From NCBI GenBank assembly GCA_012520455.1, contig JAAYOE010000186.1, positions 1 to 60,295 on the forward strand: 60,295 bases of DNA, read 5' to 3'. Positions 1,656-29,950 of this stretch are shown here, piece by piece; the first letter of the stretch is position 1, and every line of letters starts with the position of its first letter. The stretch comes from Tissierellia bacterium (lineage in GTDB: Bacteria; Bacillota; Clostridia; Tissierellales; Sedimentibacteraceae). Under the pieces are notes generated by a model. That model worked only from the letters and a program-made list of their open reading frames with translations. It had not been told where the DNA came from and ran no database searches. Made by a program: the position numbers and the translations under genes.

Positions 1656-3365
1656 ATGGATTTTAAGGAAAAAGTAGCTGAAATTTTTACATCTATAGAA
1701 CCTGAGCTGTCGATGGATGATGCTCTTCAATTGATAGAGATACCACCCAATACCGATATGGGAGACTATGCGGTACCTTGTTTTAAATTTGCTAAGAAAT
1801 ACAGAAAGTCTCCTGCTGCTTTAGCTAATGAATTTGTTGAAAAAATAGGGAAGCCGGATGAGTTCGAAAAGATAGAAAGCGCCGGACCCTATGTTAACTT
1901 TTTTGTGAACAAGTCTCAGTTTGCCGAAAAAGTATTGAGAACGGCTTTTAAGGAAAAGGAAAATTTCGGCAGGACCGATGTAGGTCAAGGCAAGACCGTA
2001 ATTGTCGAGTTTTCATCTCCTAATATAGCGAAACCCTTTCATATAGGCCATATACGTTCAACCCTGATAGGGAATGCCATACACAAAATTTATACATACT
2101 TAGGATACAATACTGTTGCAATAAACCATTTAGGGGATTATGGAACCCAGTTCGGCATGCTTATATCTGCTTATAAAAAATGGGCGACTCCGGAAGTTGT
2201 TGAAGCAATTGAAAAAGACCCCATAAATGAATTGATGAAGCTCTATGTGCGATACAATAAGGAAATTGAAACCCATCCCGAATACCAGGAAGAGGCCAGG
2301 TATTGGTTTAAGCAGTTGGAAACAGGAGATGAGGAAGCTCATAAATTGTGGGCATGGTTCAGGGAAGTGAGCCTTAAGGAATTCAACCGGGTATATGATA
2401 TGTTCGGCATTAAATTTGATTCCTATGCCGGGGAAAGTTTTTATTCGGATAAAATGCCTGCAATAATAGATGAATTAGAGGACAAATGCCTCCTTAAGGA
2501 ATCTGAGGGAGCAAAAATAGTGGAGCTTTCCGAATACGGCCTGACCGATGCCCTCATTCAAAAGAGTGACGGGTCCACCCTCTATGTAACCAGGGACGTG
2601 GCTGCCGCAAAATACAGGAAGGAAACCTACGATTTCTATAAGAATATATATGTGGTTGGGGCCCAGCAGAAGCTCCACTTCGACCAATGGAGAAAAATAA
2701 TCGATTTAATGGGATACGACTGGGCATACGACTGTGTCCACGTGATGTTTGGAACCGTAAGCTTGGAGGACGGGGCCTTATCCACGAGAAAGGGAAGGGT
2801 TGTATATTTAGAAGATGTTTTAAATAAGGCAATCGAAAAGACCAGAGAAATCATCGATGAAAGAAATCCCAACCTGGAAAACAAGGAGGAAGTTGCAAGG
2901 CAGGTTGGAATAGGGGCGGTAATATTCCAGGAGCTTTTCAACAACCGTATCAAAGACTATGTGTTTTCTTGGGATAAGACCTTGAGTTTTGAAGGGGAAA
3001 CAGGGCCATATGTCCAGTATACATACGCAAGGACCTCCAGCCTTCTTCGAAAAGCTGACATAGAAATAAACGATGATGTGGACTACACTGTTTTTACCGA
3101 CAATGAATCATTCAATGTCATAAAGAAATTGGAAGGCTTTAAGGATGCGGTATTAAATGCCCATGACAAGTACGAACCTTTTATGGTAACCCGATATATT
3201 GTGGGTCTGGCCCAGGAATTCAACAGATTCTATCACGAACGTCCGATTGTAACGGAGGAGGATGAAAGGGTTAAAAAGGCAAGGCTGCTTTTAACCTTAA
3301 CCGTAAACAGGGTTCTCAAGAAAGGAATGGAGCTTCTTGGAATGGAAGCACCGGAAAAGATGTAA
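1656..3365 (+). CDS. argS: arginyl-tRNA synthetase
   Basis: FSSPNIAKPFHIGHIRST HIGH-type motif, LSTRKGRVVYLED, C-terminal anticodon-binding domain. Confidence 0.97.
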   Translation: MDFKEKVAEIFTSIEPELSMDDALQLIEIPPNTDMGDYAVPCFKFAKKYRKSPAALANEFVEKIGKPDEFEKIESAGPYVNFFVNKSQFAEKVLRTAFKEKENFGRTDVGQGKTVIVEFSSPNIAKPFHIGHIRSTLIGNAIHKIYTYLGYNTVAINHLGDYGTQFGMLISAYKKWATPEVVEAIEKDPINELMKLYVRYNKEIETHPEYQEEARYWFKQLETGDEEAHKLWAWFREVSLKEFNRVYDMFGIKFDSYAGESFYSDKMPAIIDELEDKCLLKESEGAKIVELSEYGLTDALIQKSDGSTLYVTRDVAAAKYRKETYDFYKNIYVVGAQQKLHFDQWRKIIDLMGYDWAYDCVHVMFGTVSLEDGALSTRKGRVVYLEDVLNKAIEKTREIIDERNPNLENKEEVARQVGIGAVIFQELFNNRIKDYVFSWDKTLSFEGETGPYVQYTYARTSSLLRKADIEINDDVDYTVFTDNESFNVIKKLEGFKDAVLNAHDKYEPFMVTRYIVGLAQEFNRFYHERPIVTEEDERVKKARLLLTLTVNRVLKKGMELLGMEAPEKM

Positions 3366-3368
3366 TCA

Positions 3369-3391
3369 GGAACGCTCAGCGTTCCCTTTTT
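3369..3391 (+). terminator. intrinsic terminator after argS
   Basis: GGAACGC-TCA-GCGTTCC followed by cTTTTT. Confidence 0.85.
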
Positions 3392-3496
3392 ACTTGACTG
3401 TCAAATTATCTCCTTATTCAACAATAGATTTCAGCTTTCTACATTGAGTATTTCTTACTTCCGGCATATACTTAGAGTTGGACAAGGAGGTATGAA

Positions 3497-4138
3497 ATGA
3501 AGGGCAAAAAATACCTGACTATTTTAACAGTTATTTGTATATTATCTTACTTTATGATGGTAAATTCAGGAGCAGCAGCGGCAGCAGGGGATAAACAGAT
3601 TTATTACAAATTTCCTCAAGAATCAATAGTAAAACCATTTATTTACGATTACAGGGATGCATTTATTCGCGAAAAGGAATTGACTGATTTTATAAATAAG
3701 GTTACGGGATTGGAATATGACCTCTGCAGGTATCTTGTCCAAGAATGCAGGGAGAAATACCTGGACCCCTTTCTTGTATTGGGGCTCATAAAAAGAGAAA
3801 GTGATTTTAATACTAAGGCTGTCGGGTCGGGAGGGGAGCTTGGCCTGGGCCAGCTTATGGAGAACACTGCAAGAATTATTGCAGAAAACTTAGGCTATTC
3901 ATATGAACATGAAATGCTATTGGATCCCCAATTCAACATAAAGCTTACCCTTACACAGCTTTCCTACCTTAAGAATGTCTATGACAATGACCTGCATAAG
4001 GTTTTAACCGCTTACAACAGGGGCCAGAAAGGCCTTGAAGACTATTTAAAGTCACAGGATGTGAGGGGGATCAGCGACTACTCATTGAAGGTTTTGCAGT
4101 ATGCTAAGGGCTTTAAAGAAGAATTTGAGAATCGATAA
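3497..4138 (+). CDS. lytic transglycosylase (SLT domain), exported
   Basis: N-terminal signal/TM segment; LGLIKRESDFNTKAVGSGGELGLGQLM SLT motif. Confidence 0.88.
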   Translation: MKGKKYLTILTVICILSYFMMVNSGAAAAAGDKQIYYKFPQESIVKPFIYDYRDAFIREKELTDFINKVTGLEYDLCRYLVQECREKYLDPFLVLGLIKRESDFNTKAVGSGGELGLGQLMENTARIIAENLGYSYEHEMLLDPQFNIKLTLTQLSYLKNVYDNDLHKVLTAYNRGQKGLEDYLKSQDVRGISDYSLKVLQYAKGFKEEFENR

Positions 4139-4144
4139 TAGCAT

Positions 4145-4173
4145 TTGATAATTTATGGGATTGATTGTATAAT
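4145..4173 (+). promoter_or_regulatory. sigma-A-type promoter upstream of the 4217 gene
   Basis: TTGATA - 17 nt - TATAAT. Confidence 0.6.
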
Positions 4174-4174
4174 G

Positions 4175-4206
4175 GAATCGCAGTAAATACTGCTGATTCT
4201 TTTTTT
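4175..4206 (+). terminator. intrinsic terminator-like hairpin overlapping the promoter/5' UTR
   Basis: GAATCGCAG-TAAATA-CTGCTGATTC followed by a T run. Confidence 0.65.
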
Positions 4207-4216
4207 AGGAGAATAT

Positions 4217-5071
4217 ATGGAAGACAGAATAAACAACCTTTTAAGCTCCTGTTATGATAATAGGGACACAATTGAATTCCAGCTGTTTTTGATAAGCGTA
4301 AAATGCCTTATTCCCTATGAAAACAATATAGGGTGTCTTTTTGACACAGACAGGTACAAAAAGGAAATTGAATTATTTTCTTGTTATATGGCAGGGAATG
4401 ATGAAACAATCAATTATTGGCTGCAGAATAAAAGGCCATGGGATATGGAGGACAGGCTTTTTGAATTTAAAATTATTCCCCTTATTTTAACAAACACCCT
4501 GTGGGAAAATACAATAGTAGAAGTCTTTAAAGCGGTTACCTTTTACACCTTGAATAAGAACACCCTGTTGGATGCCTTGCTCATTTCATCTGCAGTTTAT
4601 GAGTATATGGATAAGGCTGATAGGGAGAGGATTGAGGAAATAACCAGGGAAAGGCTGATAGATTTTTCTATCAAGGAATATTTTACAAAAAATGAATTGG
4701 AAATCGCCAGGGATTACATAATTGCCTTTGAAAAAGAAAGAATAAAACTCCTATCAAGACCAATGTTGTTTGATGATGATATGAAGGGAACTTACAAGGT
4801 TTTAAATTACATATTTGAAAAAACAAAGGAATCCTCCGAAGAGGGCAAATCAGATACAATAGACAGTTTTTCAACATACTTGTATAAACTCAGAAAGGGT
4901 TTAATAAATCCCGAAAAATTAATAATACCGGACGAGATTCCGGATATCAGGGAATGTTTAAAGAATCCGGCTTTCAGCCACCCTCTCTTGGGGAGGTGCC
5001 GGGTGTTGAAGAAAACAGGGAATACGGCTTTAATAAGGAATAAATCAGGGCTTTTGAGGATAAGGATATGA
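4217..5071 (+). CDS. hypothetical protein, 284 aa, first gene of the radical SAM operon
   Basis: intact ORF with RBS AGGAG; stop overlaps the next start; no family recognised. Confidence 0.8.
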   Translation: MEDRINNLLSSCYDNRDTIEFQLFLISVKCLIPYENNIGCLFDTDRYKKEIELFSCYMAGNDETINYWLQNKRPWDMEDRLFEFKIIPLILTNTLWENTIVEVFKAVTFYTLNKNTLLDALLISSAVYEYMDKADRERIEEITRERLIDFSIKEYFTKNELEIARDYIIAFEKERIKLLSRPMLFDDDMKGTYKVLNYIFEKTKESSEEGKSDTIDSFSTYLYKLRKGLINPEKLIIPDEIPDIRECLKNPAFSHPLLGRCRVLKKTGNTALIRNKSGLLRIRI

Positions 5072-6768
5072 AAATACTGTTGATAACCTTGGATTCTAAA
5101 TATATTCACGCAAACTTAGCCGTCCGATATTTAAAAAAATACTGCGGTGATTTTGATATTGTAATAAAAGAATTTACCATCAATCAAAGACCGGAATACA
5201 TATTGGGCGAAATATTGGCTGAAGGTCCGGACCTGATTTGCTTTTCCTGCTACATATGGAACATTGATTATATAAAGGATATTTCATACATAATAAAGGA
5301 ATCAAAGAGTGAGGCCAGGTTACTCTACGGAGGGCCCGAGGTTTCCTTTGAGATAAAAGAATTGATGGAATCCAACCCCTTCATCGATTTTGTAATCTTT
5401 GGGGAAGGGGAGGAAACTTTTAAAGAATTTCTTGAAGAAATCCAAAAACCAAGTCCCCTGCTCCGTAAGATCAAGGGACTGGCTTTCAGGGAAAACAATG
5501 AAGCAATAATTAACGAAAGCAGGGGACTTATTGATAATTTAGATATAATCAATTACCCCTATGAGCCAGAAGAAGAATTTGAAAACAAAATCATCTATTA
5601 CGAATCCTCCAGGGGATGCCCTTTTTCCTGTTCTTTCTGCCTGTCCTCAATCGATAAAAAATTGAGATTTTTTTCCATGGAGAGGGTTAAGAGGGACTTG
5701 AAGATGCTTTTAAATACAAAGGCAAGGCAAATCAAGTTCGTTGACAGGACCTTTAATGCGGATTACAGGCGGTCCATGGAAATAATGGAGTATATTGTTG
5801 AAAACAATAAAAACAATATGACAATACATTTCGAAATTACTGCCGACATAATAAATGACCAGTTCTTAAGTTTTTTAGGAAAAATGCCCGTAAATATGTT
5901 CCAATTTGAAATAGGCGTTCAATCCTTGAATGTGGATACCTTGTGTGAAATCGACAGGCATATGGATAAGGATAAGTTGAGCAGAGCAATCAGGGAAATA
6001 GGGAAAAACAAGAACATCCACCTTCATCTGGACCTTATTGCAGGCCTCCCTTATGAAGATTATGAAAGCTTCAAAAAGTCCTTTGACGGTATATATAAGC
6101 TTAATGCGGAGAAAATCCAGTTAGGCTTTCTAAAAGTCCTGAAGGGAACCAAAATCTTCAGGGATAAAGAAAAGCACGGGATAAAACACACCTTAAAAGC
6201 ACCCTATGAAGTAATCTGTACAAAATACATCAGCTTAGGGGAATTATTAAAATTAAAAAATATTGAAGAATTGGTGGATAAATATTATAATGAAAAATAC
6301 TTCAACAAATCCATAAAATATGCAGCAGGTACCTGGTTTGCCGAGTCACCCTTTGAGTTTTACTCGTCATTCAGTGATTACTGGCAGAAATATGATTTAT
6401 ACAACAAGGCTCACAGCAGGAAAAAGCTTTATAGAATCCTCTATGATTATGTGAAAGATATGAAGGGTATTGACGACGAATTCATACAGGCATTGAAATT
6501 TGACTATATATTTAACAACCAATTTGAAGAATTGCCTGACTATTTAGACAGAGAGTCGGAAGACAGGTTTAAGAGCCTTAAGAAGGGGCTGGCTCATGAT
6601 GTTGATTTTAAGAATAAATACTTTCCTTCAAGTGAAGAAAAGATTGTAAATGATTTCAGGATTTGCCAAATCGGAGGAAATATTATCTTATTTATATACA
6701 GGGACAGGGAAAATATCTTTAACAGGTGTGAAACATATGTTGTTAACGACATAGAGGAGGCTAAATGA
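5068..6768 (+). CDS. B12-binding-domain/radical SAM protein (DUF4080-like)
   Basis: MKILLITLDSKYIHANLAVRYL N-terminal B12-binding-like domain; CPFSCSFCLSS radical SAM CxxxCxxC motif. Confidence 0.9.
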   Translation: MKILLITLDSKYIHANLAVRYLKKYCGDFDIVIKEFTINQRPEYILGEILAEGPDLICFSCYIWNIDYIKDISYIIKESKSEARLLYGGPEVSFEIKELMESNPFIDFVIFGEGEETFKEFLEEIQKPSPLLRKIKGLAFRENNEAIINESRGLIDNLDIINYPYEPEEEFENKIIYYESSRGCPFSCSFCLSSIDKKLRFFSMERVKRDLKMLLNTKARQIKFVDRTFNADYRRSMEIMEYIVENNKNNMTIHFEITADIINDQFLSFLGKMPVNMFQFEIGVQSLNVDTLCEIDRHMDKDKLSRAIREIGKNKNIHLHLDLIAGLPYEDYESFKKSFDGIYKLNAEKIQLGFLKVLKGTKIFRDKEKHGIKHTLKAPYEVICTKYISLGELLKLKNIEELVDKYYNEKYFNKSIKYAAGTWFAESPFEFYSSFSDYWQKYDLYNKAHSRKKLYRILYDYVKDMKGIDDEFIQALKFDYIFNNQFEELPDYLDRESEDRFKSLKKGLAHDVDFKNKYFPSSEEKIVNDFRICQIGGNIILFIYRDRENIFNRCETYVVNDIEEAK

Positions 6769-13694: not shown

Positions 13695-13706
13695 AATGAA
13701 AAATAC

Positions 13707-13734
13707 CGGGATGACAAGGGTCATCCCGATTTTT
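13707..13734 (+). terminator. intrinsic terminator after pyrR
   Basis: CGGGATGAC-AAGG-GTCATCCCG followed by ATTTTT. Confidence 0.85.
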
Positions 13735-13750
13735 ACGGGCAAAATTTAAT

Positions 13751-13779
13751 TTGATTATTCTGTCGAAAAATGATAGAAT
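13751..13779 (+). promoter_or_regulatory. candidate sigma-A-type promoter of the two-gene NTPase/HEPN unit
   Basis: TTGATT - 17 nt - TAGAAT with TGA extended -10, about 75 nt before the ATG. Confidence 0.5.
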
Positions 13780-13851
13780 TGTTATATTATTGTCTTTCAA
13801 TTGCTCATTTGAAATACGGCAAAATTATTCTGCAACTAAAAGGAGTAGACG

Positions 13852-16800
13852 ATGAGTATAGGTTTATATTTTAAAAATGATGTTAAAGTAGACGAAAAGG
13901 TTAAGATTACTTTAAACAGCGGAGCAGTACATACCGGCAAAGTTATTTCATATGATGACAATATTGTGGTGATTGCGGCCAACGGACGACCAAAGCCAAT
14001 AAACTTCAACGGTATTGCCGATTATGAAATTATCGAAGACAATTTAAGCAATGACGGCGATGATTTAAATAAAACCCCCTTCCAAAAAGAAATAAAAGCT
14101 TCCATGGACTTTTTCAAAGGCATTGATATCAAGTACGAGTTTTCGGCAAGTGATTTCAGCAAAGAGCGAAAATCAGCCAAGGATAATATATCGGATGATT
14201 TTTTAAGCATTGAAAATTCATTTTTATATGCTGTCAAGCTGAAGGAAACAGACCCTAAATTCGGAAGAATGGACAGGATAATTGCGTCAATCAAGCATCT
14301 TCAGGAAAGCAGCGACATTGATTTCTATAACTATGCCTTAGGCGAAGTATACTTTGTATGCGGAAATTTTAAAGAAGCCGGGGACTATTACTATAAAGCC
14401 AAGAAATATATGCCTTCCGCAGCCATGTACCTAAAATGCGGCAATGATGAAGGTGCCATGAATGCGTCGGCAGCTGCTTGCTTAACTGCCGATAGTATTA
14501 GAGAAATTGAAAATGTCTTTAAGCTGATGGTCGTAAGTACGGAAAAGATTAAGGATATTTCTGTACTGAAAGAGTGTTTCAACAGGAAGAAAGATAATTT
14601 AAACAGTGAAAGTATTAAGCTTTTTACTGATGCCTTTGTTTACTTTTCATCCCTTTCAAAAATAAGCATCAATTGGCCTGATAACCTTACATATTATTCA
14701 CCTGACAATTTGCTTGCAATTATAAATCAAACGGCAGAAAGCAACAAGTACAAGAAAGATAATCTCTTGATTGATTTTATCAATGAGGAGATTGATAAAG
14801 CAAAGGATGCCGGTAATAAGAATGAGACCAATGAAATGCTGACCGGGAGGATAATCAGGTTCAATCCGTTAAACAACACCGGTTTTATTTCCACCTTCGT
14901 GGATTCTGTTTTTTTTCATATTTCCGAAGTTTGGGATGAAAATCTAAAAAACAAGATTTTAAGAGGTTCATATAAAGATATATATGTTGAATTCAGTTTA
15001 TCGGAACGTTTTAACAAAAAAAGAGGGACATACGGCAAGGTTGCCACAGGCATCCGTTTCAGCAAATCCATACCCGAAAAACCGCAAGCAGAGGCAAAGA
15101 AATTCTTGGGAACATCAAGGGAAGGATATATTAACTCTTACACTCCCAATAAAGAAATTGGTACCATTTATTCGGGAAAGGACGTATACAGCTTCCTGCT
15201 CAGGGGGGTGAGTGACAAGGCCTTGGCCGGAAAACTCTGTACCGACTATGATATTTCCGGAATCGAGGTAACTTTTGAGGCAAGGAAGCTTCCGGGCGGA
15301 AAGCTTGCAGCAGTGAATGTAAAGCCCAAAAACCCTATTCCTGAAGAAGTTCGCAAATCATATGAGACCTTTGCCCCTGTAATCGATAAAACCACATACA
15401 GGACCGAGAAAGAAGACTTATTGGACCCTGAAAAAAAGGAAAGCATTTTATTGTCACTGGTTAACAAGAATCCCAATAATGAGAAACATGTGGCCGATTT
15501 AATAACCTTTTATTTATCAACTGCAAATCAAGACCCGGATTCCATAAAAAAGGCCTTGAGGTTAGTCGAAAGACATAAGAGGTATTTTGAAGAGGAACGT
15601 GTATTCCTCCAGTATATACGAATATATGAAAAGGCAAAGGATTATGAGAAGCTTTTAAAGTATTATAATTTAGTAATTCAAAATACCGATGCCGTAAACA
15701 GAAAACTCCACTATTTAAATTTAAAGGCTGATATACTTTCAGATTCAAACAAGGGGTGTTTGGACTATGAAAAGGCCATAGAAACATATCAGGAGTGGAT
15801 AGCCGTAAAGAATAAAAACAAGGTATTGTTAGGAATTAAGGACGATTATACGGGATCTTACGCATCGATTGAATTAAACATCAAGAGAAGGTTAGCCGTT
15901 TGCTATCTGAATCAAAACAATGAAAAGGCAGCAAAGGAGATAGCCTCCGAAATTTTATCCCATAATCCGGCAGACCAAATAGCCGCCGGCATTATCCAGG
16001 GTACATATTATCCCAATAATTTGGAATCAGACCAGCAGCCGGAAGCAGATGACAGCGATTTGTACTACTATGATTTTGAATTGAATGACATCATGCAAAA
16101 CCGTCTGAGTAATTTTAAATTATCCGTTGTTTTTACCCACGTTAATGATTTGGAGGATGAGAAACTAAAGGGGACCATTTCGGTTGCAAGGACCAAGGTC
16201 AGAAAGTTAGAAGACAGTTTAAACACCTTGAATACACAAAGACCTAAGGACTACAGAAACACCTGCCTGGCAATTGCCAAAATAATTGACCAGTATATGT
16301 CCAAGGATACGGAGAAGGATGGTTTATTCAACAAAAAATCCCGATTTGAATACATGATAAGAAGCTTGGTTGCCGAAGGAGACCTGTCGGTTAAAACCGA
16401 GGAAGTACCTATTGACGCGGCAAGATACTTGTATCTGGAATCAAGTGCAGAGATTGAACAGCTGAACCAGCAGCTCTATATTAACGCTTACGTCCGATAC
16501 TTGGTATCCTTCTTCGTAGAAAGAAAGGATATTCCCATCGGTGTGACAAAAACCGGGGTAAACCTGAATCCGACAACCCCCTTAAGCTATTTTTCCAAGT
16601 ACGGCTTAAATGAAAACCCGGTAAACTTTGTAAATGCATGCACCATGCTCTTTATTAAAAAGAATAACTTAATAAACCAAATATGCCAGCAGATTTGCGA
16701 ATCAAAGAATCAGGAATTAATATCTTCCATAATAGAAGTTTTTCAAGCTGCCTTAGGAATCGACAATATAGAAAATATAAACACCAAGAGTCTCGAAGAC

Positions 16801-18783
16801 CTTTGGAGCAAATATATATTTTGGTTTAAGCAGAAGCTGCAGGATTTCAAGCAGGCGGTAAAGGAAATTGATAAGATTGAATTTTCGACATTTTGGTTAG
16901 AACACAACATTGAAAAATTAGAGCAATACTTAAGATACAATATAATTTTGGCTAAAGACAATGAGCGGATGAAGGAAGTGATAGGGCTTTTAAACATTGC
17001 AAACCGCTTTGTTACGGATAAGGACTTTGATAACAGGGAAACTGCCCTGAGGGATATAATCAGAAAGGGCCGGAGCTTGGAAAAGGATATATTTGAATCC
17101 CCGACCCCCTTTGCCTTTGATACCGTAAGACAAATCCTGCCTGAAATATGCAGTGTGGCAGAAAGGAAGCTCATTGAGTTATTTGTAGCTTATAAGCCGG
17201 AATTATCGGTTGAAATCATAAACAGCAACACATTTTTGAACAACAGGGAATGTGAATTAAGGTTTGTTTTAAAAAACAAATTATATTGCCAGACGGTCAG
17301 GGAGATAGACATCAGTTCAGCAACCCACACAACTTGCATAACTCGGGACATCAACAAGGATTATGTCAAGGGGGGAAATGATGAAACTTTGATTATTGCC
17401 GTTAAACCCACGGCTGACCAGATCAGCAGGAAGGCCTTCCAGTTCAATCTGACCATAAAGTATAAGTATATGGTATCCCCGGATGATACCATAGAGGACT
17501 GCCTGAGCGAAGACTTTTCAATTAACTTGTTCAAGGAAGCTGATTTTATTGAAATTAATAACCCCTACAGCGCCATAGACACAAGCGGTGAAGTCAGGGA
17601 TAAAAATATGTTTTTTGGTAGGGATGAATTTATAGCCGGTATTGTAAATAACTTGAGAAACAAGGACAATACCCTGCTCAGATCCAAATGCATAGCCTTG
17701 TTCGGCCAAAAGAGGGCAGGCAAGTCATCTATTTTATACCACTTGGAAAACAAGATTAAGTCTGCCTATAAGAATTCCATCGTGATAAAGTTAGGCAACA
17801 TCCAAAACATTCTGAGCGGCAACGACAGCAAATCGGTAATTATCAGCTTCAGACACAGGATACTCACCCTGTTGAACGAAAAATTGGAGGACCATTTTCC
17901 CGAGCTTTTAGAAAAGATGGAAGCAAGCAATATTTCCTTCCCGACAATCGGGGAATTGACCAGTGAAATAGGCCCCAGCTTATTTATAAGCTTTTTCGAA
18001 AACTTCAATAAAAAGGTGATTAACAAGGACTACAACATAGTGATATTGATAGATGAATTCACCTATGTTTACGGAGAAATAAAGAAGGGGAGGCTGGATT
18101 ATACCTTCATGCAGCTGTGGAAGGCCATGATACAGGACCTGGAATTTGTCGGTATTTTAGTAGGACAAGACTACATGGAAAAATTCATTAATGATTTTGC
18201 CAATCCCTTCGGCACAGTCAAGAAAGAAAGGGTAACCTATTTATCCCGTGAAAGCACCAAGGAATTATGCGAGGTACCCATTCAAATAATCCATGAGAAC
18301 GGAGAAAGGGAATCCAGGTACAAGGACGAAAAAGCCTTTGAAAGAATCTGGCAGGCGACGGCCGGGAGCGCTTTTTACACGGTGAAAATCTGCAGTGCCC
18401 TTGTAAATTATCTAAATGATAAAAAATCTCCCTATATAGTTGAGGCTGACATCAAGAATGTCATCAACAACATACTTCTGCAGGATAACGGAAGGCTGTC
18501 GGAATCCGAATTTGATGCCTTGTTTAATGACGAGGGCGATATAGAAGATAAGGCAAAAAAGGATGACAACATAAAAATTCTCAAGAAAATTGCCCAGATG
18601 TCACAGAAGGATGATTATTGCCTGAGAAGCGATATTGTTTGCGATTTGCCCCAAGAGAGGGTGGATATGCTGCTCCAGCTTTTATGTGACAGGGACGTAT
18701 TGGAGCAAAAAGAAAACAAGTACAAGATTAAGGTAGGCTTGTACAAGGATTGGCTGATTAAAAGATACGGAGGTAACAACTGA
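13852..18783 (+). CDS. giant multidomain protein: Sm/SH3-like N-term, cold-shock-like OB domains, TPR-like helices, STAND/AAA NTPase, C-terminal winged helix
   Basis: 1643-aa ORF; NTGFISTFVDSVFFHISEV CSD-like (14836-15063); second OB-like segment (15121-15333); Walker A FGQKRAGKSS at 17701; Walker B NIVILIDEF at 18034; C-term wHTH-like VDMLLQLLCDRDVLEQKENKYKIKVGLYKDWLIKRYG. Confidence 0.8.
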   Translation: MSIGLYFKNDVKVDEKVKITLNSGAVHTGKVISYDDNIVVIAANGRPKPINFNGIADYEIIEDNLSNDGDDLNKTPFQKEIKASMDFFKGIDIKYEFSASDFSKERKSAKDNISDDFLSIENSFLYAVKLKETDPKFGRMDRIIASIKHLQESSDIDFYNYALGEVYFVCGNFKEAGDYYYKAKKYMPSAAMYLKCGNDEGAMNASAAACLTADSIREIENVFKLMVVSTEKIKDISVLKECFNRKKDNLNSESIKLFTDAFVYFSSLSKISINWPDNLTYYSPDNLLAIINQTAESNKYKKDNLLIDFINEEIDKAKDAGNKNETNEMLTGRIIRFNPLNNTGFISTFVDSVFFHISEVWDENLKNKILRGSYKDIYVEFSLSERFNKKRGTYGKVATGIRFSKSIPEKPQAEAKKFLGTSREGYINSYTPNKEIGTIYSGKDVYSFLLRGVSDKALAGKLCTDYDISGIEVTFEARKLPGGKLAAVNVKPKNPIPEEVRKSYETFAPVIDKTTYRTEKEDLLDPEKKESILLSLVNKNPNNEKHVADLITFYLSTANQDPDSIKKALRLVERHKRYFEEERVFLQYIRIYEKAKDYEKLLKYYNLVIQNTDAVNRKLHYLNLKADILSDSNKGCLDYEKAIETYQEWIAVKNKNKVLLGIKDDYTGSYASIELNIKRRLAVCYLNQNNEKAAKEIASEILSHNPADQIAAGIIQGTYYPNNLESDQQPEADDSDLYYYDFELNDIMQNRLSNFKLSVVFTHVNDLEDEKLKGTISVARTKVRKLEDSLNTLNTQRPKDYRNTCLAIAKIIDQYMSKDTEKDGLFNKKSRFEYMIRSLVAEGDLSVKTEEVPIDAARYLYLESSAEIEQLNQQLYINAYVRYLVSFFVERKDIPIGVTKTGVNLNPTTPLSYFSKYGLNENPVNFVNACTMLFIKKNNLINQICQQICESKNQELISSIIEVFQAALGIDNIENINTKSLEDLWSKYIFWFKQKLQDFKQAVKEIDKIEFSTFWLEHNIEKLEQYLRYNIILAKDNERMKEVIGLLNIANRFVTDKDFDNRETALRDIIRKGRSLEKDIFESPTPFAFDTVRQILPEICSVAERKLIELFVAYKPELSVEIINSNTFLNNRECELRFVLKNKLYCQTVREIDISSATHTTCITRDINKDYVKGGNDETLIIAVKPTADQISRKAFQFNLTIKYKYMVSPDDTIEDCLSEDFSINLFKEADFIEINNPYSAIDTSGEVRDKNMFFGRDEFIAGIVNNLRNKDNTLLRSKCIALFGQKRAGKSSILYHLENKIKSAYKNSIVIKLGNIQNILSGNDSKSVIISFRHRILTLLNEKLEDHFPELLEKMEASNISFPTIGELTSEIGPSLFISFFENFNKKVINKDYNIVILIDEFTYVYGEIKKGRLDYTFMQLWKAMIQDLEFVGILVGQDYMEKFINDFANPFGTVKKERVTYLSRESTKELCEVPIQIIHENGERESRYKDEKAFERIWQATAGSAFYTVKICSALVNYLNDKKSPYIVEADIKNVINNILLQDNGRLSESEFDALFNDEGDIEDKAKKDDNIKILKKIAQMSQKDDYCLRSDIVCDLPQERVDMLLQLLCDRDVLEQKENKYKIKVGLYKDWLIKRYGGNN

Positions 18784-20306
18784 TGGATAATCCTTTCATT
18801 GTTGGAGCAGAGGTTGAAGGAGAAAGCTTTATAGGGCGGAGGGACCAATTAAAGCAATTCAATGATTTATTGTATAAGAATGATTCGAAAAGCGGGAGCA
18901 TATCCTTAACGGGCATAACCAGGATAGGCAAAAGCTCCCTGATACGAAATGCCGTGAAACTTAACGAGAATAAAAACATAATAACGGTCAAGACGGTCAT
19001 AAGCAAGTTTTCAGATTTTAACGAATTCTGGACAGATGTATTATCCTTGGTGAGGGATGAACTGGAATTTGTCGAAGGCAACTATTTTAAGGAAATCAAT
19101 GCTCTTGATGCAGCTATTGATGCCGGCACCAATGATACCTATAATTTCAGGAGGAAGGTAGAAAAGGCATTTAAGCTGATATCCAAACAATTAAAGCTGG
19201 TGATAGTGATCGATGAGTTTGATTTTGCGGAATATGTCTTTGGATCCGACTCTTCCAACTTTCAGTTTTTCCGTGAATTAATATCCTCGGCGGACTATAA
19301 GATGACCTTTATAACAATTTCAAGGCGGAGCTTGATTCACATTGAGACAAGGTCCTTCGGAGGCTCGACTTTAGACGGAGTATTTAAAAAGATTAGCCTC
19401 AGGGGATTTTCAAATGAAGATTTGCAGGAATATTTCAATAAGTTCGACAGCCTGCAGATAAAATTGAGCGATGACATAAAGAAAAAGATTTTGTATTATG
19501 GGGGCAGGTCTCCTTACCTTTTATCTGCAATCGGACAGGAAATAGTATACAGGCAGGGGGCTGATGATTTTGATTCCGTCCTTTCCGCATGCAATCAACA
19601 ATTTTTGGATTACTTCAAGAGGATAGTAGAGTTGTTAAAGGATGAAGATTTCTATAACAAGCTTTTGCAGATCTATATCGGGCCCAGATACAATATAAAA
19701 CAATATGATATAGATGAGCTTGTATCAAGAGGTTATATTTCCAACAAGATAAAAGGGTTTTATGATACCGGCGAAGATAATATAGATGAATTCAAGTATG
19801 AAACCATATCAGAATATTTTGTTGAGTACCTCATGGATATATCCCAGCCGGAAGTAGGAGAGATTTGGCCTGTTTTGTCCGAAGCCGAGAAGAAGTTAAG
19901 GTCAATCATTGAAATAGAACTGACCGGCATGTTTGGCGGAAGGTGGATGGAAGAGCTTGAAAGAGTAAACCAGGAATACAAGAAGAACAAAAGGACCTTT
20001 ATTGATTTTGATAAGGTTAATATAAACTTAGCAGTCAACAAGAAAAAGTATAAGGAAAGGGCAAGCGATAATATCCTGACCACGGTAGGCATCATGGAAT
20101 TAAGAAACATCCTCCAGCATTACTGGACAAGGTTTGCGCCATATTTTAACAATGACCAATTTTCTAAATGGTCTGACAGGTTTTATTTATTACATAAGGC
20201 AAGAAATCCCTTGGCTCACAATACGGCTGAGTTTTTGACGGAAGAGGAAATTATGGAAACAGAACTTTACTGCCGTGAAATAATATCATCCATTGCTAAG
20301 AAATAA
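18783..20306 (+). CDS. STAND/AAA-type NTPase with C-terminal HEPN (Swt1-like) domain
   Basis: NPFIVGAEVEGESFIGRRDQL; Walker A GITRIGKSS (18912); Walker B LVIVIDEFDF; C-term YLLHKARNPLAHN R-x4-H motif (20202); TGATG overlap with upstream gene. Confidence 0.8.
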   Translation: MDNPFIVGAEVEGESFIGRRDQLKQFNDLLYKNDSKSGSISLTGITRIGKSSLIRNAVKLNENKNIITVKTVISKFSDFNEFWTDVLSLVRDELEFVEGNYFKEINALDAAIDAGTNDTYNFRRKVEKAFKLISKQLKLVIVIDEFDFAEYVFGSDSSNFQFFRELISSADYKMTFITISRRSLIHIETRSFGGSTLDGVFKKISLRGFSNEDLQEYFNKFDSLQIKLSDDIKKKILYYGGRSPYLLSAIGQEIVYRQGADDFDSVLSACNQQFLDYFKRIVELLKDEDFYNKLLQIYIGPRYNIKQYDIDELVSRGYISNKIKGFYDTGEDNIDEFKYETISEYFVEYLMDISQPEVGEIWPVLSEAEKKLRSIIEIELTGMFGGRWMEELERVNQEYKKNKRTFIDFDKVNINLAVNKKKYKERASDNILTTVGIMELRNILQHYWTRFAPYFNNDQFSKWSDRFYLLHKARNPLAHNTAEFLTEEEIMETELYCREIISSIAKK

Positions 20307-20310
20307 AAAC

Positions 20311-20331
20311 CGGGGACGGATACCGTCCCCG
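20311..20331. terminator. terminator hairpin between the convergent NTPase/HEPN unit and rqcH
   Basis: CGGGGACGG-ATA-CCGTCCCCG, flanked by an A-rich tract (T-rich on the - strand). Confidence 0.8.
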
Positions 20332-20334
20332 AAA

Positions 20335-29699: not shown

Positions 29700-29824
29700 A
29701 TTTGCCATAGCGTGGAAATCGGGTTGACGGAGAATATCTTAAAGCTAAGGCATCAATAAAAGATATAGGGATATAGATATTGACAAATAATGAACAAAGC
29801 CTTATACTTAAATAAAAAACAATT

Positions 29825-29932
29825 ATCTTCAGGGGGAGGTGCAAGTCCTCACCGGCGGTAGAGCCCGCGAGCCTATATGGCTGACCTGGTTTGATTCCAG
29901 GGCCGACAGTTACAGTCTGGATGGAAGAAGAT
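29825..29932 (+). ncRNA. FMN riboswitch (RFN element)
   Basis: P1 ATCTTC/GAAGAT; aggggg...tcctcaccggcggtagagcccgcgagcc...ggccgacagttacagtctggatggaagaag matches the RFN consensus. Confidence 0.95.
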
Positions 29933-29950
29933 TTATTAGAAATATATTTA

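Follow-up and report, generated by a model that had tools for sequence, protein, structure and literature searches.

The question raised by this locus is whether a gene in a 60,295-nucleotide stretch of DNA from a Tissierellia bacterium (contig JAAYOE010000186.1, assembly GCA_012520455.1; this whole stretch is referred to below as the window) encodes a ribonuclease controlled by a nucleotide-binding switch, and, if so, to what purpose. A sequence-only reading of the encoded protein, here called P2, had proposed a STAND-type ATPase fused directly to a Swt1-like HEPN domain, and had named a HEPN profile match and conservation of the putative catalytic R and H in homologues as checks. The features of P2 are:

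18783-20306, + strand: P2 gene (ORF translation, 507 aa), comprising an AAA_16/STAND-like ATPase (residues 16-250), a linker/winged-helix-like region (residues ~251-356) and the HEPN domain (residues 357-507)
18912-18938, + strand: P2 Walker A motif GITRIGKSS (residues 44-52), from sequence, invariant in three orthologues
19200-19223, + strand: P2 Walker B motif VIVIDEFD (residues 140-147), from sequence, with an acidic core (IVIDEF) invariant in three orthologues
19851-20303, + strand: HEPN_Swt1-like domain (P2 residues 357-507), from profile matches
20202-20219, + strand: R474-N-P-L-A-H479, predicted catalytic Rx4H motif (R474 codon 20202-20204, H479 codon 20217-20219)

The ATPase and C-terminal domain of P2

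The N-terminus of P2 is a genuine AAA_16/STAND-like ATPase, as had been read from the sequence: it matches AAA_16 at 41.6 bits in a profile search (cut-off 32.6) and both Walker motifs are intact, with nSTAND2 matching below its cut-off (20.2 bits against 24). A low-confidence AlphaFold2 model (pLDDT 45) gave structural matches of the ATPase core to ORC/Cdc6, to Pyrococcus 2qen and to MalT, a STAND protein.

Several lines of profile evidence bear upon the C-terminal domain. PF18731 (HEPN_Swt1) matches the whole of P2 with E=8.1e-4 (20.1 bits) and residues 357-507 with E=3.1e-5 (24.6 bits), the latter just below the curated cut-off of 27.5, which the orthologous domain from another species of the genus (L005) exceeds at 28.8 bits. 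The best-scoring named model for the domain is PADLOC PDC-M34B (E=3e-8). We also used a profile of our own, built from 16 divergent Swt1-HEPN proteins of other genomes in the phylum (three PF18731 loci from high-GC genomes, L083, L085 and L087, were omitted because they resembled wrong-frame hits); with P2 itself left out, this profile scored P2 at 23.7 bits, whereas none of 1000 shuffles exceeded 7.6, and when RNPLAH was masked the remainder of the domain retained 10.4 bits. An hhalign comparison (1.9e-5) placed the domain in the same register as the other profiles. On this basis the C-terminus of P2 is confirmed, by profile comparison, as a Swt1-like HEPN domain.

The motif itself is present exactly as it had been reported, and the polar residue that HEPN_Swt1 requires after the R of Rx4-6H is N, at the right profile position. 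Taken alone, the motif is no better than chance, with Rx4-6H appearing in 45% and R-polar-x3-H in 10% of shuffles of the last 151 residues of P2, whereas the predicted HEPN domain as a whole is better than chance. The profile alignment places RNPLAH on the R and H of the 16 divergent relatives, which were excised at the motif, so that its conservation among them partly reflects how they were selected; R474 and H479 are likewise unchanged in all three orthologues, an invariance that gives weak support because these are 89-93% identical. The earlier observation is upheld.

Two observations besides the shuffle frequency would be expected if the C-terminus were a helical domain carrying an Rx4H by accident, and not a HEPN domain at all: the single-sequence PF18731 score of P2 lies under the curated cut-off, and the AlphaFold2 model of P2 (pLDDT 45), which predicts the C-terminal region to be helical, is too poor for the HEPN fold to be matched. 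However, as several independent profiles, the L005 orthologue above the cut-off and hhalign agree in register, the HEPN call stands above chance, and we regard an accidental motif as extremely improbable.

The domain begins at about residue 357-366, and its N-terminal helices, which bear the G-x-x-W motif of the family (FGGRW), occupy residues ~366-401. The interval first assigned to it, 20020-20306, leaves out roughly its first third, including these helices; the coordinates are to be extended to 19851-20303.

The partner gene P1 and the pyrR-rqcH gap

The sequence-only reading had overlooked the setting of P2, which is encoded by the second gene of a pair; the product of the first, P1, contains another ATPase and probable RNA-binding domains. 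The P1 stop and P2 start codons share one base (TGATG). The pair lies in the gap between pyrR and rqcH as a discrete 6.5-kb unit with a promoter-like site and terminator-like hairpins of its own:

13705-13730, no strand assigned: terminator-like hairpin in the pyrR/P1 interval, from a scan
13751-13779, + strand: promoter-like TTGATT-17-TAGAAT of the pair, from a scan; kept in the other two species carrying the pair, such sites being common by chance
13852-18783, + strand: P1 gene, 1643 aa, partner of P2; same arrangement in L004 and L005
13852-14037, + strand: P1 residues 1-62, LSM/Hfq-like beta domain, sub-threshold (over residues 1-70, Hfq 0.032, Hfq_1 0.058, LSM 0.061, DUF2097 0.0032)
14824-15081, + strand: P1 residues 325-410, cold-shock/OB-like domain 1, sub-threshold (PF00313, E 0.002); affected by an in-frame deletion in L005
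15094-15366, + strand: P1 residues 415-505, possible second OB-like domain, judged only by eye and from the secondary structure in a model of very low confidence
15409-16026, + strand: P1 residues 520-725, TPR repeats (TPR_14 2.1e-6, above cut-off)
17557-18780, + strand: P1 residues 1236-1643, second STAND-like ATPase (Walker A GQKRAGKSS, Walker B VILIDEF; nSTAND1 6.5e-5)
20310-20332, no strand assigned: bidirectional terminator-like hairpin in the P2/rqcH interval, from a scan

The P1 ATPase matches nSTAND1 at 23.2 bits, under the cut-off of 27.1, and the Walker motifs of the P1 and P2 ATPases are intact in all three species. Further TPR-like repeats lie between the LSM-like region and cold-shock-like domain 1. 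The LSM and cold-shock domains are suggested, below threshold, by profile scores of 14.3 bits for Hfq (cut-off 27), 13.5 for LSM (cut-off 23.4) and 18.4 for PF00313 (cut-off 27), for which reason these domains are called LSM-like and cold-shock-like only; residues 415-505 matched no profile. Since these calls fall below cut-off, and since the AlphaFold2 model of residues 320-510 (pLDDT 31) is too poor to support a cold-shock fold, we infer, and go no further than inferring, that the P1 N-terminus may be an RNA-binding sensor.

Profile searches of both proteins found no other effector domain, which argues against the HEPN domain of P2 being a non-catalytic RNA-binding or dimerisation module in a pair that acts by ATPase-driven sequestration or through some other effector. 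The precedent for such a role is eukaryotic Swt1, whose HEPN domain is thought to be inactive (PMC3710099); in P2, however, the R, the polar N that follows it and the H are present and invariant, as in the bacterial relatives, and we consider a non-catalytic domain very unlikely. An NTP-gated RNase is a sound reading of the predicted architecture of P2.

The surroundings of the pair are housekeeping genes, with no defence island and no mobility genes. RqcH is a ribosome-rescue factor, and its gene lies on the strand opposite to P2, beyond the terminator-like hairpin. Elsewhere in the window are an ordinary FMN riboswitch (29821-29936, + strand), scoring well over the gathering score, and a B12-binding radical SAM protein with DUF4080 (5068-6765).

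Distribution, history and the surveillance alternative

Two further species of the genus (G004, the source of L004, and G015, the source of L005) have the pair at this position, so that three of the 25 genus genomes carry it and 22 do not. It was not found in ~400 genomes of the phylum, and searches of the 25 congeners, these phylum genomes, plasmids and phages (and, for P2, viral contigs also) gave no full-length relative of either protein beyond the genus; weak plasmid matches in Bacteroides (H9) and Geobacter (H10) were dismissed as chance-like by E-value and context. In the sister species G011 and G012, pyrR and rqcH are adjacent, separated by ~70 bp, and the gap is short in G013 and G008 too. 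At the same spot G016 has a ThiF/MoeB-like gene (448 aa) and G002 a small membrane-like ORF, the cargo of the gap thus varying by species between the pair, a ThiF/MoeB-like gene, a small ORF and nothing (L050, L049, L052:6861-8207, L057 and window 13695-20334).

The three carriers form one clade in the rqcH tree (support 97/90). The simplest history is a single insertion, in the ancestor of the three species, of the two genes alone, flanked by the promoter-like site and the terminator-like hairpins that belong to them. Because rqcH is encoded on the other strand, beyond a terminator-like hairpin, and because the site is empty in sister species, its adjacency reflects an insertion site and not an operon. 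The pair and its flanking genes show similar synonymous divergence (dS), and the pair has a dN/dS of ~0.05, from which it follows that the pair is vertically inherited, functional and under selection. The rate is uneven within P1: at similar dS, dN is 0.13-0.24 for residues 63-520 (window 14038-15411) and 0.03-0.06 for residues 521-1643, a roughly fourfold higher rate of change in the N-terminal third. In L005, where the corresponding part of P1 is 3301-4629, cold-shock-like domain 1 has been lost in frame. The fast region fits a fast-evolving sensor.

Strong purifying selection and vertical maintenance amid housekeeping genes are also what would be expected of the main rival to a defence role, namely that the pair is a housekeeping RNA surveillance device, in which P2 would cut the aberrant RNA or stalled ribosomes that P1 binds, effecting quality control without suicide or defence in a functionally meaningful rqcH neighbourhood. 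The LSM-like, cold-shock-like and TPR regions of P1 would suit such a role, and eukaryotic Swt1 is itself an RNA surveillance factor (PMC3710099). This alternative is weakened by the patchy distribution of the pair, which is missing from 22 of 25 genus genomes and from all others searched, and by the rqcH adjacency being a mere insertion site, with rqcH facing the other way behind its hairpin and pyrR and rqcH adjoining one another without the pair in sister species. STAND-HEPN combinations are, moreover, typical of conflict systems (PMC3710099). Taken together, we judge RNA quality control to be unlikely.

Links to defence and a proposed RNase switch

The relatives of the HEPN domain provide several links to defence. 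The L005 domain matches the profile of PD-T4-5 (7e-5), a gene identified by experiment and reported to confer abortive infection (Vassallo et al. 2022, PMC9519451), although PD-T4-5, with its abortive-infection phenotype, is a plasmid-borne AbiF/D-like gene that lacks the ATPase pair. A Swt1-HEPN-like relative of 409 aa, with RCQVAH and a second motif, RNRSVH, is encoded in the BREX operon of a Nostoc plasmid, where brxC and pglX flank it (L090:5761-6990, NZ_CP046706.1). The small Swt1-HEPN defence candidates represented by PADLOC PDC-M34B share the Rx4H and the HEPN match with P2, but the example examined (L019) is a stand-alone 195-aa HEPN protein without the ATPase that P2 possesses. The PDC-M34 system, which consists of M34B and a partner, was not recovered here, the M34B match being through HEPN alone and P1 matching no PADLOC model; its ATPase architecture also differs from that of P1-P2.

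The ATPases have a relative of their own in a restriction operon on an Acinetobacter ursingii plasmid (L020:5256-10782, NZ_MH220285.1). There a type I-like N6-methylase/specificity protein ends in an ATPase homologous to that of P1 (Z 21, hhalign 1.4e-9), and its gene overlaps by 8 bp a second gene that begins with an ATPase of similar layout. The similarity of P2 to this second protein is weaker, being strongest after the ATPase core (Z 6) and nil in the effector part. The two systems differ at both ends, with the methylase/specificity region in place of the P1 head, and no detectable HEPN domain at the C-terminus of the second protein, where a divergent HEPN was considered and found no support (Z 0.1; hhalign nil). 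That C-terminal domain contains the motif FGDFGQH. Nor was there support (Z 0.2) for a beta-sandwich preceding the ATPase in both P1 and the Acinetobacter protein, and ATPases of Rhodococcus and Arthrobacter akin to the Acinetobacter one proved, at the two loci examined, to be lone ATPases and not pairs. This single second example suggests that the two ATPases may form a reusable chassis.

The general domain combination has been known since 2013. Swt1-like HEPN domains with STAND ATPase, TPR and S1 domains are already listed as Npun_F6454, MED222_16016 and Desac_1927 (Anantharaman et al. 2013, PMC3710099, Table 1); compared by domain class only, these share with P1-P2 the HEPN family and the STAND ATPase, TPR and OB-fold RNA-binding classes, but are listed as fusions, whereas P1-P2 are two overlapping genes with two ATPases, and with sensor and nuclease at opposite ends. 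HEPN-STAND-cold-shock proteins of the Bacillus cereus gi:229028907 type (PMC3710099) likewise unite HEPN, a STAND NTPase and a cold-shock OB-fold in one system, but, as described, in one polypeptide, HEPN lying at its N-terminus and the cold-shock domain at its C-terminus. CoCoNuT systems, for which RNA targeting is predicted, combine cold-shock OB-folds and HEPN nucleases with NTPases (PMC11090510) and, by their description, are built on McrB GTPases and coiled coils, unlike P1-P2. What differs here is the division of the combination over two overlapping genes with two ATPases.

We consider it somewhat probable that P1 and P2 constitute a two-component, NTP-gated HEPN RNase switch with an RNA-reading sensor, serving abortive infection or a dormancy or stress shutdown. 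In this proposal the LSM-like and cold-shock-like regions and TPRs of P1 would recognise an RNA or ribonucleoprotein state arising from infection or severe stress; the C-terminal STAND-like ATPase of P1 would then change state and engage the related ATPase of P2; nucleotide-driven assembly would bring P2 HEPN domains together; and the R474/H479 site would cut RNA (tRNA, rRNA or mRNA), stopping translation and leading to abortive infection or dormancy. Of this, the analysis establishes the P2 domains, both ATPases, the TPRs, the coupling of the genes, their one-time acquisition and the pattern of selection; the RNA trigger, the contact of P1 with P2, RNA cleavage, its target and the role in defence are putative. 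The one-base overlap, the common locus, the RNA-binding-like N-terminus of P1 and the intact Walker motifs of both ATPases favour a switch, and the PADLOC candidate, the PD-T4-5 match, the Nostoc BREX relative and the Acinetobacter restriction-operon ATPase favour a role in defence. Against this reading, the pair is kept vertically among housekeeping genes without mobility genes, unlike most defence systems, and was found in three species only, one of which (L005) is without cold-shock-like domain 1. A more specific version, possible if on balance rather unlikely, is a relay in which a STAND-like ATPase with an LSM/cold-shock/TPR head recruits a second such ATPase that carries HEPN, in a manner comparable to the pairing of helper and sensor in the NLR immunity of plants and animals, the ATPase pair being a modular chassis re-used with another head (the DNA methylase of Acinetobacter) and another tail.

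The evolutionary setting would also be unusual, in that a system of the conflict type has stayed at one housekeeping locus throughout the history of a clade and has not turned over. If the proposed switch is right, P1-P2 would provide a compact bacterial case in which the sensor and the RNase effector are separate NTPases, the sensor having a probable RNA-reading head, and sensing by STAND-HEPN systems would become testable with two proteins, one predicted catalytic dyad and three natural sensor variants.
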